The notes under the pieces are model-generated. The model was not told the DNA's origin. It made no database searches and worked only from the letters and a program-made list of their open reading frames with translations. Source: an uncultured Clostridia bacterium (lineage in GTDB: Bacteria > Bacillota > Clostridia > UBA1212 > SIG427). Taken from it: DNA of 38,573 bases. Positions 5,991 to 36,441 of this stretch are shown one piece after another. Position 1 is the first letter of the stretch, and every line of letters begins with the position of its first letter. The stretch is taken from contig CAMFNB010000010.1 in assembly GCA_945965275.1 (NCBI GenBank), forward strand, positions 1 through 38,573. Reading direction: 5' to 3'. The position numbers and the translations under genes were made by a program.

Positions 5991-6404
5991 TTATTTCTTT
6001 GGGGCTTTCGCACCATACTTTGATCTGCTCTGTGTTCTGTTAGCAACGCCTGCAGTATCAAGTGTTCCTCTGATAATGTGGTATCTTACACCGGGAAGGT
6101 CCTTTACACGACCGCCTCTGATAAGAACTACACTATGCTCCTGAAGGTTATGTCCGATACCGGGAATGTAAGCTGTTACTTCCATACCGTTAGTAAGACG
6201 AACTCTGGCAATCTTACGGAGCGCTGAGTTAGGCTTTTTCGGAGTAGTTGTTCTTACGTTAGTACATACGCCTCTCTTTTGTGGGCTGTGTACGTCTGTA
6301 GCTTTCTTCTTAAGTGTGTTAACACCTTTCTGAAGAGCCGGTGCAGTGTACTTCTTCTCCAAAGTCTGTCTACCTTTTCTAACCAATTGGTTAAATGTTG
6401 GCAT
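5991..6404 (-). CDS. rpsL: 30S ribosomal protein S12
   Basis: [13 protein letters not shown]...[36 protein letters not shown]. Start trimmed from 6449 to the ATG at 6404, preceded by AAAGGAG. Confidence 0.98.
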
Positions 6405-6479
6405 TCGCTTCAACTCCTTTCTTAAAGAATAAATTTTTCTTTGCAGCATTGCAGAAACCGCAATACGGCAAGCTTGTTA

Positions 6480-6508
6480 ATTCTACAACTTGGGAATGTC
6501 TTTGTCAA
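6480..6508 (-). promoter_or_regulatory. strong sigma-A-type promoter for the rpsL operon
   Basis: Minus strand TTGACA (6503-6508)-17 nt-TAGAAT (6480-6485). Confidence 0.8.
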
Positions 6509-6571: not shown

Positions 6572-6710
6572 TTACTACTATTTTTCATTTTTTCCGAAAT
6601 AGTAGTAAAAAGTGGCCAAAAACTACTACTATTTTCTTATTTTCGTGAAATAGTAGAAGAAAATCACCGTATATTACTACTATTTTTCAATTCCGTAAAA
6701 ATAGTAGTAA
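6572..6710. repeat. three tandem palindromes with exact 51-bp period
   Basis: Unit 1 TTACTACTATTT/AAATAGTAGTAA (6572-6608), unit 2 CTACTATTT/AAATAGTAG (6626-6656), unit 3 TTACTACTATTTTT/AAAAATAGTAGTAA (6674-6710). Confidence 0.93.
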
Positions 6711-6747: not shown

Positions 6748-6781
6748 AAAAAAGCCACCGACTTTCTGAGTCGATGGCTTT
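6748..6781 (-). terminator. Rho-independent terminator after rpoC
   Basis: Minus strand AAAGCCATCGACT-CAGAA-AGTCGGTGGCTTTTTT. Confidence 0.88.
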
Positions 6782-6800: not shown

Positions 6801-9800
6801 TTACTCAGAGATTGTTTCTTCTCCGATAACTTCCTCTGCTTCAACAACAGGAACTGTTGCATTCGGAAGAGGCTCAACATCAACCTTGATGTTCTTGTAT
6901 CTTCCCATACCTGTTCCGGCAGGAATAAGCTTACCGATAATAACATTTTCCTTAAGACCGATAAGAGGATCACGCTTGCTCTTGATGGCTGCGTCTGTAA
7001 GAACTCTTGTTGTCTCCTGGAAGGATGCTGCTGATAAGAACGAATCAGAAGCAAGAGCTGCTTTAGTGATACCGAGAAGAATTCTTGTACCTGTAGCCGG
7101 TTCCTTGCCTGCTGCAAGAGCAACCTTGTTAGCTTCATTGAATTCATATACGTCAATTGTTGATCCGCTGACAAGATTTGTTTCGCCTGCATTGTCAACT
7201 TTGATTCTTCTGAGCATCTGACGAACGATAACCTCAATATGACGGTCGTTGATTTTAACACCCTGCATATTGTAAACAGTCTGTACTTCTTCGATGATGT
7301 ACTTCTGAACGCCCTCAACACCGAGAACACGGATGATATCCTGTGGGTTGATTGAACCTTCTGAAAGCTTGTCACCAGGCTGTACTTCGTCGCCGTCCTG
7401 AACTCTTACCTTAGCACCTGCAAGAAGGCTGTATGTCATTGACTGTCCGTCCTTGCCTGTTACTGTTACTTCTGTCTTACGTCCTGAATCATCAACTGAA
7501 ACAGTACCTGCGATATCAGTAATAGTTGCAAGACCCTTTGGCTTACGAGCTTCAAAAAGCTCCTCTACTCTCGGAAGACCCTGTGTAATATCTTCTGCTG
7601 ATGAAATACCACCTGTATGGAAAGTTCTCATCGTAAGCTGTGTACCGGGCTCACCGATTGACTGAGCAGCGATGATACCTACTGTCTCACCGACGTTACA
7701 TGTCTTGTTTGTAGCAAGGTTTGAACCGTAACACTTAGCACATACACCGTGGTGGCACTTACATGTGAGAAGTGAACGAATCTTAACTGATGTGATTCCT
7801 GCTGCAACAATCTTGTCTGCGAGTTCATCATTAATAAGTGTGTCTCTGTCAGCTAAGATTTCGCCTGTCGTAGGATCTACAACATCCTCTGCAGGATATC
7901 TGCCTGAAAGTCTTGCCGCAAGCGGTACAACTACCATCGGCTTCTCTGTATCATAGTTCATGATTGCTTCAACAACCATACCCTCATCAGTTCCGCAATC
8001 AAGGTCACGGATGATAACTTCCTGAGATACATCAACAAGACGACGTGTAAGGTAACCTGAGTCAGCTGTTCTCAAGGCTGTATCAGAAAGAGTCTTTCTG
8101 GTACCGTGAGAAGAAATGAAGAATTCCAGGACATCAAGGCCTTCACGGAAGTTAGCCTTAATAGGAATTTCAATTGTGCGTCCGCCTGTTGCTGACATAA
8201 GTCCACGCATACCGGCGAGCTGCTTAATCTGGTTGATAGAACCTCTGGCACCTGAGTCTGACATCATGTAGATTGGGTTGTCTTTGCCCATGTTTGCCTG
8301 TAAAAGTTTTGTAAGCTTATCGATAGTCTCTGTCCAAGCTTTGATAACGTTTTCGTAACGCTCTTCGTTTGTGATAAGACCTCTTCTGTACATCTTAGTG
8401 ATGTTGTCGATAACTTTATCTGTCTCTTCAATAAGTGACTGCTTTTCTTCAGGTACATTGATATCTGATACGCTGACTGTAAGAGCACCCTTTGTTGAAT
8501 ACTTGTAACCCTGTGCCTTAATCTTATCAAGTACGACAACTGATTCTGTGTTGCCGTGAATCTTGATACATCTGTCAAGAATTTCAGAAAGAGTTCCCTT
8601 CTTAACAAGCATATCACACTCTAAGAGAAGAGCATTTTCTTTCTTTGTTCTGTCAACGAATCCGAGATCCTGAGGAACTGCATCGTTGAAGATGAGCTTA
8701 CCGATTGTTGTGTTTACAACCTGTGAAATCGGTTCGCCGTTCCACTCACCGTATCTCTTAACTTTGATTGGTGTGTGAATCTTAATATCACCCTGGTCAT
8801 ATGCGAGCATAGCCTCGTCATATGATGAGAATGCCGGAGCATGCTCATAATCATCGCTTACTGAAAGTGTAAGGTAATAGCTTCCGAGTACCATATCCTG
8901 AGTAGGAACTGTAATCGGCTTACCGTCCTTAGGAGCAAGAAGGTTGTTAGATGCAAGCATAAGGAATCTTGCCTCTGCCTGTGCCTCTGCTGAAAGCGGT
9001 ACGTGTACGGCCATCTGGTCACCGTCGAAGTCGGCGTTGAACGCTGTACATACGAGTGGGTGAAGTCTGATTGCACGTCCTTCAACAAGGATTGGTTCGA
9101 ATGCCTGAATACCGAGTCTGTGAAGTGTAGGAGCACGGTTGAGCATTACAGGATGTTCCTTGATAATCTCTTCAAGAATATCCCAAACCTCAGGACTGAG
9201 TCTTTCAACTTTCTTTCTTGCGCTCTTAATGTTAGGAGCAATTTCTCTTGAAACAAGCTTGCTCATAACGAAAGGCTTAAATAATTCAAGTGCCATTTCC
9301 TTGGGAAGACCGCACTGATAAATCTTGAGCTCAGGACCTACAACGATAACTGAACGTCCTGAATAGTCAACTCTTTTACCGAGGAGGTTCTGACGGAAAC
9401 GTCCCTGCTTACCGCGAAGCATGTCTGAAAGAGATCTGAGAGGTCTGCTTCCCGGACCTGTGATAGGTCTTCCGCGACGACCGTTATCCATAAGTGCGTC
9501 AACAGCTTCCTGAAGCATTCTCTTTTCGTTTCTGATAATAATCTCAGGAGCTCTGCACTCAACAAGCTTCTTTAAACGGTTGTTTCTGTTGATAACTCTT
9601 CTGTAAAGGTCATTTAAGTCAGATGTTGCAAATCTGCCGCCGTCAAGCTGTACCATCGGACGAAGATCCGGAGGAATAACCGGAATTGCTGAAAGAATCA
9701 TCCACTCAGGCTTGTTGTTTGACTGACGGAATGCTTCAGCAACTTCAAGACGCTTAACAAGACGCATCTTCTTCTGTGCGATTGTCTGAGCTGCTTTTTC

Positions 9801-10412
9801 CTTCTCCTGGTTTGTAAGCTTGTCGATTTCTTTCTTAAGTTCTTTTGTGAGCTTGTCAAGATCCACAGCTTCAAGAAGCTCTTTTACAGCCTCAGCACCC
9901 ATTTCTGCACGGAATGCATCCTTGCCGTATGTTTCAACAGCTTCTCTGTACTCTTTTTCGTTCAAAACCTGCTTATATTCGAAAGGAGTTGTACCTGCAT
10001 CAAGAACAACATAGGCAGCGAAGTAAAGCACTCTTTCAAGGGCTTTTGGAGTCATATCAAGGATAAGACCCATTCTGCTCGGGATGCCTCTGAAGAACCA
10101 GATGTGTGATACGGGAGCAACGAGCTGGATATGACCCATACGGGTTCTTCTTACCTTTGAGCTTGTAACTTCAACACCACACTTGTCGCAGACAATTCCT
10201 CTGTATCTGTTTTTCTTGTATTTACCGCATTTACATTCGCCGTCTTTAGTTGGTCCGAAGATTACTTCGCAGTAAAGACCGTCTTTTTCAGGCTTTAATG
10301 TTCTGTAGTTAATTGTTTCCGGCTTCTTAACTTCACCGTGAGACCAAGATAAAATCTTCTCGGGAGAAGCTAAACCTACCTGCATTGAATCGAAATTAGT
10401 AAAATCTATCAT
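6801..10412 (-). CDS. rpoC: DNA-directed RNA polymerase subunit beta'
   Basis: 1203 aa; [16 protein letters not shown] catalytic motif; Zn-binding [22 protein letters not shown]. Confidence 0.99.
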
Positions 10413-35052: not shown

Positions 35053-36441
35053 TTATTTCTGTGGAGCCTGAGGTCTCGGTGGCATTGGAGCGCCCTGAGG
35101 TCTCGGTGGCATTGGAGCACCCTGAGGTCTCGGCGGCATTGGAGCACCCTGAGGTCTCGGTGGCATCTGAGGAGCATTAGGAGTAATTCCCTGAGGTCCT
35201 AATCCGCCCTGAGGTCCCTGTGGAGCTACAGGTCCCTGAGGAGCCTGAGGTCCGTTTCCGCCTGCCTTCTTTTTCTTAAGAAGGATAAGGACGATTGCAA
35301 CTGCTGCACCTACGATAACAACTGAGCCTGCAATAATTCCGATAAGTGCACCTACCGGCAAGCCATTCTTTTTAAGTGCGGCAACAGCTGCATTTAATGC
35401 TTCTGCCTTAGCATCTGTGTCTTCCTGTGATACAGGGTTGTTCTTTGCATTCTTAGCTGCCATGAGAGCAGTCTGAACTGCGTCATATGTTTCATCTGTA
35501 TAGTCGTCTTTGTTAAGACCTTCTGCCTTTGCAATAGCTGCGTCAATCTTAGTTGAATCAACTACAACCGGCTCGGGAGTCGGCTCAGGAGTCGGCTCAG
35601 GAGTAGCAACATCAATCGGGCCCGGATCAACAGTACCGCTCGCATTTGAATAGAGGGCTGTGATATCTGCCTGAGATGCAGGATAAAGGTAAACACGTGC
35701 GTAAGCAATTTCACCTTCGAGAAGTGCAGGCCAAATACTTGCACCGCCGTCACCGATTGTAATTGTTGATCCGATTTCTGAGCTTACAGTCTGCGGGTGT
35801 AAGTTATTTGATACTCTTGCTTCTGATTTAGCTGCTTCAGTACCGTTTACATAGTAGTAGTTGTACTCACCGTCAGATACACCAACGATATGAGTCCATA
35901 CACCATGTGTCATATGCTCCTGAACATATGCGTTACACATTGCGGTGCTGGGATCTGTTGTCCACTGAGGGTCGTTGTTCTGTGTGCAACGGAAACCGTT
36001 TGCCTGGTCACCTGCAGTGTTGTAGTCTGATAAACATACGGCATTTGCACCGATTGCAAAGAAGTTTGTTTCCTTGCCGTCAAAGCCTTCGTCCATCAAG
36101 AGATACATTTCAACTGTAAGACCGTCATTAAGATCATAAGCTGTGAAATCATATCCGTCCTCATATACGAGAGCTGCTGAACCCTCTCCGCCGAATCTTG
36201 CAACCTTTGAACCAAGTGTTGCATCATCTACGAAAGTCGGGTCATCACTGCCGTCCTCAGAAATTGTAAAATTTCCTGTCTGGTCTTCAGCAGAACCTGT
36301 TCTGTAGTCAACTGAGAAAGTAAGTGCACTTGTAAGAGCATTACTTACTTCAGCAGCAGAAGTTGCAACAGGAATCATACCAACTACCAATGAAAGTGAA
36401 AGTACGATGAGAGTTGCTAAAAAGAAACTTCTCTTTTTCAT
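35053..36441 (-). CDS. membrane-anchored LamG + FIVAR-like protein with cytoplasmic proline-rich repeat tail
   Basis: Signal peptide; LamG region (LTVEMYLLMDEG...YYYVNGTEAAKS...YARVYLYPASQADITALYS); PEPTPEPTPEP linker; FIVAR-like helix region; TM VGALIGIIAGSVVIVGAAVAIVLILL-KKKK; tail of (PPRPQGAPM)n. Confidence 0.8.
   Translation of the reverse strand: MKKRSFFLATLIVLSLSLVVGMIPVATSAAEVSNALTSALTFSVDYRTGSAEDQTGNFTISEDGSDDPTFVDDATLGSKVARFGGEGSAALVYEDGYDFTAYDLNDGLTVEMYLLMDEGFDGKETNFFAIGANAVCLSDYNTAGDQANGFRCTQNNDPQWTTDPSTAMCNAYVQEHMTHGVWTHIVGVSDGEYNYYYVNGTEAAKSEARVSNNLHPQTVSSEIGSTITIGDGGASIWPALLEGEIAYARVYLYPASQADITALYSNASGTVDPGPIDVATPEPTPEPTPEPVVVDSTKIDAAIAKAEGLNKDDYTDETYDAVQTALMAAKNAKNNPVSQEDTDAKAEALNAAVAALKKNGLPVGALIGIIAGSVVIVGAAVAIVLILLKKKKAGGNGPQAPQGPVAPQGPQGGLGPQGITPNAPQMPPRPQGAPMPPRPQGAPMPPRPQGAPMPPRPQAPQK
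35067..35166 (-). repeat. 27-bp tandem repeat, about 3.7 copies, coding PPRPQGAPM
   Basis: CCTGAGGTCTCGG(T/C)GGCATTGGAGC(G/A)C repeated at 35067, 35094, 35121, 35148. Confidence 0.93.

Follow-up and report, generated by a model that had tools for sequence, protein, structure and literature searches.

The rpoC-rpsL intergenic region

The window analysed here is a stretch of 38,573 nucleotides from the draft genome of an uncultured Clostridia bacterium (1.53 Mb in 86 contigs, 83% complete; hereafter, the window genome). Between its minus-strand genes rpoC and rpsL lie three palindromes of the form TTACTACTATTT-N13-AAATAGTAGTAA, repeated start to start at an exact period of 51 bp (Table 1). The units are 37 bp each with loops of 13 nt, and are separated by 14-bp spacers that differ from each other. 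These features, and the perfect inverted repeat of the third unit, had been described in an earlier note on this DNA and are confirmed here, as is the placement of the array past the rpoC terminator and upstream of the rpsL promoter-like site, which begins 63 bp away. The window contains no second copy, as the note had also stated: ten sites match the arms with at most one mismatch and clustering is seen only for the six half-sites of the array itself. When dinucleotide-shuffled sequence from the window genome (374 kb) was scanned de novo, no arrays of three or more units were detected. Elsewhere in the window (35067-35241), a weak and irregularly spaced cluster of CCTCAGG inverted repeats lies within a long ORF (35053-36441) and is probably a chance occurrence in coding sequence.

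Table 1. Features of the rpoC-rpsL region (window positions) and the five loci of the array in the window genome
Feature	Position	Strand	Remarks
Palindrome unit 1	6572..6608	.	TTACTACTATTT-N13-AAATAGTAGTAA
Spacer 1	6609..6622	.	14 bp; conservation above random and below that of the arms (five arrays)
Palindrome unit 2	6623..6659	.	Outermost pair C...G
Spacer 2	6660..6673	.	14 bp
Palindrome unit 3	6674..6710	.	Perfect 14-bp arms
Whole gene-less array	6572..6710	.	139 bp
rpoC intrinsic terminator	6751..6781	-	Adjoins the array, outside the element
rpsL promoter-like site	6480..6508	-	TTGACA-17-TAGAAT; neighbour, outside the element
rpsL ORF	5991..6449	-	Neighbouring gene
rpoC	6801..10412	-	Neighbouring gene
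Array locus C2			Between ftsZ and rimP-nusA-infB
Array locus C4			Starts at the stop codon of the 250-aa nuclease-like gene
Array locus C10			Window array, rpoC-rpsL
Array locus C16			Beside radC-mreB-mreC
Array locus C35			Between convergent dusB and an ABC-transporter gene

Copies of the array and the equivalent locus in relatives

A genome-wide search allowing up to three mismatches identified 15 units, all of which lie within five 3 x 51-bp arrays with zero single units. The window array is thus not unique to the rpoC-rpsL gap, as four further copies are present in the genome (Table 1; gene names at the five loci were read from translations). Of the many dispersed copies that, according to the earlier note, would favor a REP- or MITE-like element, the dispersal is borne out and the abundance is not, the arrays being few. 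Identity among the five arrays is 0.93 over the arms, 0.46 over the loops and 0.48 over the spacers (permutation means of 0.31 and 0.27 for loops and spacers, respectively) and 0.25, which equals random, over the flanks; the homology ends exactly at the outermost palindrome ends. The middle unit has C...G as its outer bases in every one of the five arrays, so that they probably descend from a shared ancestor. No target-site duplication is visible at the five arrays and, in contrast to MITEs and other elements with terminal inverted repeats, these copies are bounded by their palindromes and lack any additional terminal repeat. At the C2 locus (L012, G000:C2), a further left arm in degenerate form, TTACTACTATTTTC, is present about 46 bp before position 8586 and ahead of the C2 array, outside its 51-bp register.

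The rpoC-rpsL gap is 396 bp long in the window genome versus 120-173 bp in the six relatives with a readable gap, in all of which it is devoid of the array. This points to the window array being either a lineage-specific insertion or a sequence lost in all six relatives. The earlier note had proposed control of the str operon by the array. An operator array for rpsL would be in keeping with the proximity of the array end to the rpsL -35 box (63 bp) and with a helical spacing compatible with cooperative binding. However, the same array is present at four unrelated loci and is not conserved in the rpoC-rpsL gap of the relatives; these observations do not support such control, and on their basis we have ruled out a str-operon operator as very improbable.

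A predicted PD-(D/E)XK-type protein encoded beside the array

The array at the C4 locus begins at the stop codon of a gene encoding a 250-aa protein (G000:C4:33282-34031), for which profile and structure database searches found no Pfam or NCBIfam family and no convincing PDB match. All eight members of the family alignment match the PADLOC candidate-defence models PDC-S68 and PDC-S69 (best member E-values of 4e-38 and 7e-12, respectively) and seven of the eight match HEAT_CxxC_PDDEXK (best 2.9e-07), with coverage of the 289-aa PDC-S69 model by P0001 confined to profile positions 131-261. PHROG profiles of endonucleases and Holliday junction resolvases also match the protein weakly. The pattern RSKSE...YE...PDF...EHxG is near-invariant among 93 homologues, with E143, E160, D173 and E188 kept in 92-93 of them, and has E-H in place of the usual E-x-K. 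As this pattern matches the expectation for PD-(D/E)XK-type enzymes, we infer that the family likely possesses nuclease activity. The predicted order of core strands is compatible with an alpha-beta-beta-beta-alpha arrangement, but the structure model, built from a three-row alignment, is poor and of low confidence (pLDDT 54); the PD-(D/E)XK fold is hence a putative assignment drawn from motifs, weak profile matches and this low-confidence model. The dN/dS ratios, 0.07-0.37 where estimable, indicate that the coding sequences of these nuclease-like proteins are under purifying selection. Phage and plasmid collections contain few relatives, mostly of the C-terminal domain common to large AAA/helicase proteins, and the one near-full-length relative, on a phage contig, is without an array of at least three units.

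Seven paralogues with distinct arrays in the window genome

If gene and array constitute one module, paralogues of the gene would be expected to have arrays of their own. The window genome encodes seven paralogous nuclease-like genes, and palindromic repeats adjoin the gene in all seven, each with a different arm (AGCCATTAT, AATCCACTT, ACCATAA, ACACACA, GTATACC, GTCCACT-type and TTACTACT). Genome-wide searches covered the arms of three of the seven array types, and all three are also dispersed without the gene; these copies retain the number of units and the period of their gene-linked counterpart. The second dispersed type, with four units at 61 bp, is gene-linked on C27 and recurs on C15, C16 and C76, and the third, with the C11 arm, recurs at four other places in the genome. 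At one of the latter, a gene-less copy on C11, the gene-linked spacing of 62,63,52,62 is repeated as (62,62),52,62, with one unit degenerate. Near-identical units and spacers in the arrays G000:C15:12336-12556 and G000:C17:2082-2453 suggest that local tandem amplification also happens and that in these two arrays it was recent and retained the period. A frameshift splits the C9 paralogue (L054, G000:C9, 2792-3620, minus strand), next to which the GTCCACT-type palindromes look degenerate.

Linkage of gene and array across Clostridia

Profile searches identified homologues in 27 of 117 Clostridia genomes, with up to 15 per genome, and six Pseudobutyrivibrio genomes encode 3-10 each. We searched the 700 bp flanking each of 99 distinct homologues on both sides for palindromes that share an arm and have a fixed geometry, without imposing a period, and found at least three palindromes beside 51 of them (41 upstream, 14 downstream, 4 both). 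Only one of 206 distant windows from the same stretches and one of 144 shuffled flanks yielded an array (Fisher 5e-29), and the sole array-positive distant window is itself a real-looking array. Within these 700-bp flanks, an array of at least three units was not detected beside 42 of the 93 close homologues, and none of the six remote homologues has an array of three units; two units only are present beside 28 further close homologues. The Pseudobutyrivibrio arrays match the window array in geometry and have arms related to its own (TACTACCT), with steps of 51, 52 or 41 bp; in three species of this genus, the array at comEC adjoins a homologue of the C4 protein. Two Pseudobutyrivibrio nuclease-like genes (L169, L170) are flanked on both sides by arrays of 6-7 units with the same arm.

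Helical phasing of the units

Unit spacings cluster at 41, 51-54, 61-64, 72-75, 82-84, 93-94 and 102-104 bp, which correspond to multiples of ~10.4 bp (41, 52, 63, 73, 84, 94, 104). The best period over 64 spacings from many arrays is 10.35 bp, with an R of 0.85 against a 95% null of 0.28, and the array-level Rayleigh test gives a p of ~4e-11. A period so close to that of B-DNA suggests a protein on one face of the helix and disfavors an RNA element. The helically phased sites are thus predicted to be protein-binding arrays on duplex DNA, and the earlier proposal of such an array finds strong support in this periodicity. Hairpins in RNA that terminate or stabilise transcripts would explain why both strands fold better than their shuffles (z ~ -6), but a stable fold is expected from any palindrome array, the spacing follows the B-DNA helix, and changes in the inner arms of the window-genome arrays are unmatched on the partner arm. 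An excess of matched arm changes at one position in Pseudobutyrivibrio is read as reflecting array subtypes. We have rejected the RNA element, whose probability appears very low, on the grounds that strong single-strand folds are expected of palindromes and that the spacing is DNA-helical.

Multi-site operators, iterons and parS-type centromeres likewise have repeated sites, in phase with the helix, to which an oligomerising protein binds. The dispersed arrays could accordingly be envisaged as chromosome-organising parS- or matS-like sites that load or tether a protein bridging distant loci, as they have a fixed geometry, are intergenic and occur in few copies per genome. However, the arrays studied here are both gene-linked and dispersed, their partner is nuclease-like and a genome has many mutually distinct systems; moreover, they are lineage-specific and their arms turn over fast, unlike the conserved parS and matS. 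A chromosome-organising role hence seems improbable.

Covariation of arm and protein

The similarity of the arms is correlated with that of the adjacent proteins (Mantel p of 0.0005 over 51 gene-array pairs). At least seven of nine arm bases are shared by 73% of the 11 pairs whose N-terminal identity is 0.5-0.7, compared to 2% of distant pairs. The overall correlation is weak (rho of 0.12-0.15, with N- and C-terminal parts not separable) because arms diverge fast, but the arm sequence does track protein relatedness. As arms differ between modules, an exact-sequence search of 146 relatives returned zero matches to the window arms. Four pattern matches in unrelated genomes (L022, L023, L032, L033) resemble simple repeats or chance and were discarded.

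Presence and absence of arrays at orthologous sites

Array presence differs between Pseudobutyrivibrio xylanivorans and P. ruminis CF1b at seven loci. Between NUDIX and glgC, an array-carrying insertion of ~426 bp is cleanly absent from the other species, and at a pyrimidine/lysozyme locus the pattern of presence and absence is reversed between the two genomes. Presence or absence at orthologous sites, a hallmark of MITEs, is hence seen in Pseudobutyrivibrio and suggested for the window locus. In P. xylanivorans (L203, ~462-889), a 4-unit array and a long imperfect hairpin are held in an element of ~400 bp with 18-bp inverted repeats (AGAGGTTTAGTCTATGGC / GCCATAGACTAAACCTCT), which is missing in P. 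ruminis CF1b. With such terminal repeats and precise presence or absence, the Pseudobutyrivibrio arrays resemble MITEs and, as they ride in a terminal-inverted-repeat element, the nuclease need not be the mover; these arrays could be moved by another transposase. In P. ruminis CF1b (L199, 456-868; G148:C8), an insertion of ~413 bp splits a stretch orthologous to a small acetyltransferase-like ORF and has an apparent 13-bp duplication on its flanks.

A non-mobile function for the system also merits consideration. The nuclease-like protein could have an antiviral or genome-guarding role, with the arrays serving as its regulatory, storage or decoy sites on the chromosome. The match of every family-alignment member to PDC-S68 and PDC-S69, and of nearly all to HEAT_CxxC_PDDEXK, would agree with such a role, as would the intact catalytic-type residues, the high diversification of the paralogues and the persistence of the comEC-linked gene and array at one locus in three Pseudobutyrivibrio species. 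However, the PADLOC models in question are themselves candidates, and the retention of irregular spacing patterns in copies suggests copying of arrays over independent recruitment of sites. We therefore deem this explanation unlikely, albeit the most serious of the alternatives.

Proposed origin of the array and comparison with known systems

We consider it very probable that the window array belongs to a gene-plus-array module and, with somewhat less confidence, we hypothesize that it represents a copy, dispersed and without the gene, of the predicted binding-site array of the C4 PD-(D/E)XK-type protein. Recognition of the array by its cognate protein is likely, judging indirectly from linkage and from the covariation of arm and protein, and its mobilisation by that protein is a tentative suggestion that may or may not hold; binding, cleavage and mobilisation are each predicted activities of the nuclease-like protein. 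Each palindrome would be bound by a protein dimer, and adjacent dimers would assemble along a single face of the helix. Spread of the arrays would occur as whole blocks through a copying process, which may use the nuclease activity of the protein, in a manner resembling the spread of REPINs with RAYTs. The rpoC-rpsL copy would then represent a lineage-specific insertion into a tolerated intergenic gap and not an operator of the str operon.

The REPIN-RAYT systems (GTAG REPs; PMC3733652, PMC2817692, PMC8266576) are similar in having dispersed intergenic palindromes linked to a gene under selection, and a separate element family for each gene paralogue. However, the protein there is a Y1 HUH transposase and here is PD-(D/E)XK-like, and the elements studied here are symmetric duplex palindromes in few copies, in blocks with a fixed number of units and a helical period. 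They also have no unpaired GTAG/CGTC tag, the homology stopping at the outer arm ends. The window system thus resembles REPIN-RAYT in outline and lacks two defining features of RAYTs, viz., the Y1 transposase and the single-sided tag. An ordinary REP/RAYT or IS200/IS605-type element would account for intergenic dispersed palindromes with a linked gene, and GTAG is present inside the arms. On the other hand, a search for Y1 transposases (PF01797) gave no match in the window genome, which is 83% complete, nor in G087, G147 and G148, the other array-bearing genomes included in the search; together with the PD-(D/E)XK-like linked gene and the symmetric units, this makes such an element quite improbable. 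The dispersed, REP-like element offered as an alternative in the earlier note comes nearer than control of the str operon, but the associated gene encodes a PD-(D/E)XK-like protein and no REP transposase is detectable in the genome.

On balance, we favor the view that these modules constitute an undescribed class, widespread in Clostridia, in which a nuclease-like gene co-evolves with a private, helically phased array that spreads in blocks, and it seems rather probable, by analogy, that this class is a non-HUH equivalent of REPIN-RAYT, present in many mutually orthogonal copies in each genome. A search of the open-access literature, with subscription journals and preprints outside its scope, found no published description of a pairing between a nuclease-like gene and a palindrome array. 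If correct, this view would provide a non-HUH origin for dispersed palindromic repeats and account for a class of unannotated intergenic repeats in Clostridia. If the cognate proteins do bind the arrays, they would form an extensive and so far unexploited collection of sequence-specific nuclease-like proteins, with targets readable from the adjacent DNA, and, with several specificities per genome, a recognition code could be learnt from protein-arm pairs. The existence of discrete classes of helical spacing renders both assembly and cooperativity open to direct study in vitro.

The modules may be selfish, defensive or both, and the match to candidate-defence families provides a lead. PDC-S68, PDC-S69 and HEAT_CxxC_PDDEXK have a C-terminal domain homologous to that of the C4 protein, but the PDC-S68 models are ~1200 aa long versus 250 aa here; no mention of linked arrays was found for these PADLOC candidate families in the open-access literature. 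Plasmid relatives of the C-terminal domain are annotated as AAA/helicase proteins, and the domain is also present in large AAA/RecD-like/RecQ-type plasmid proteins from other phyla (H5-H9, H11-H13).
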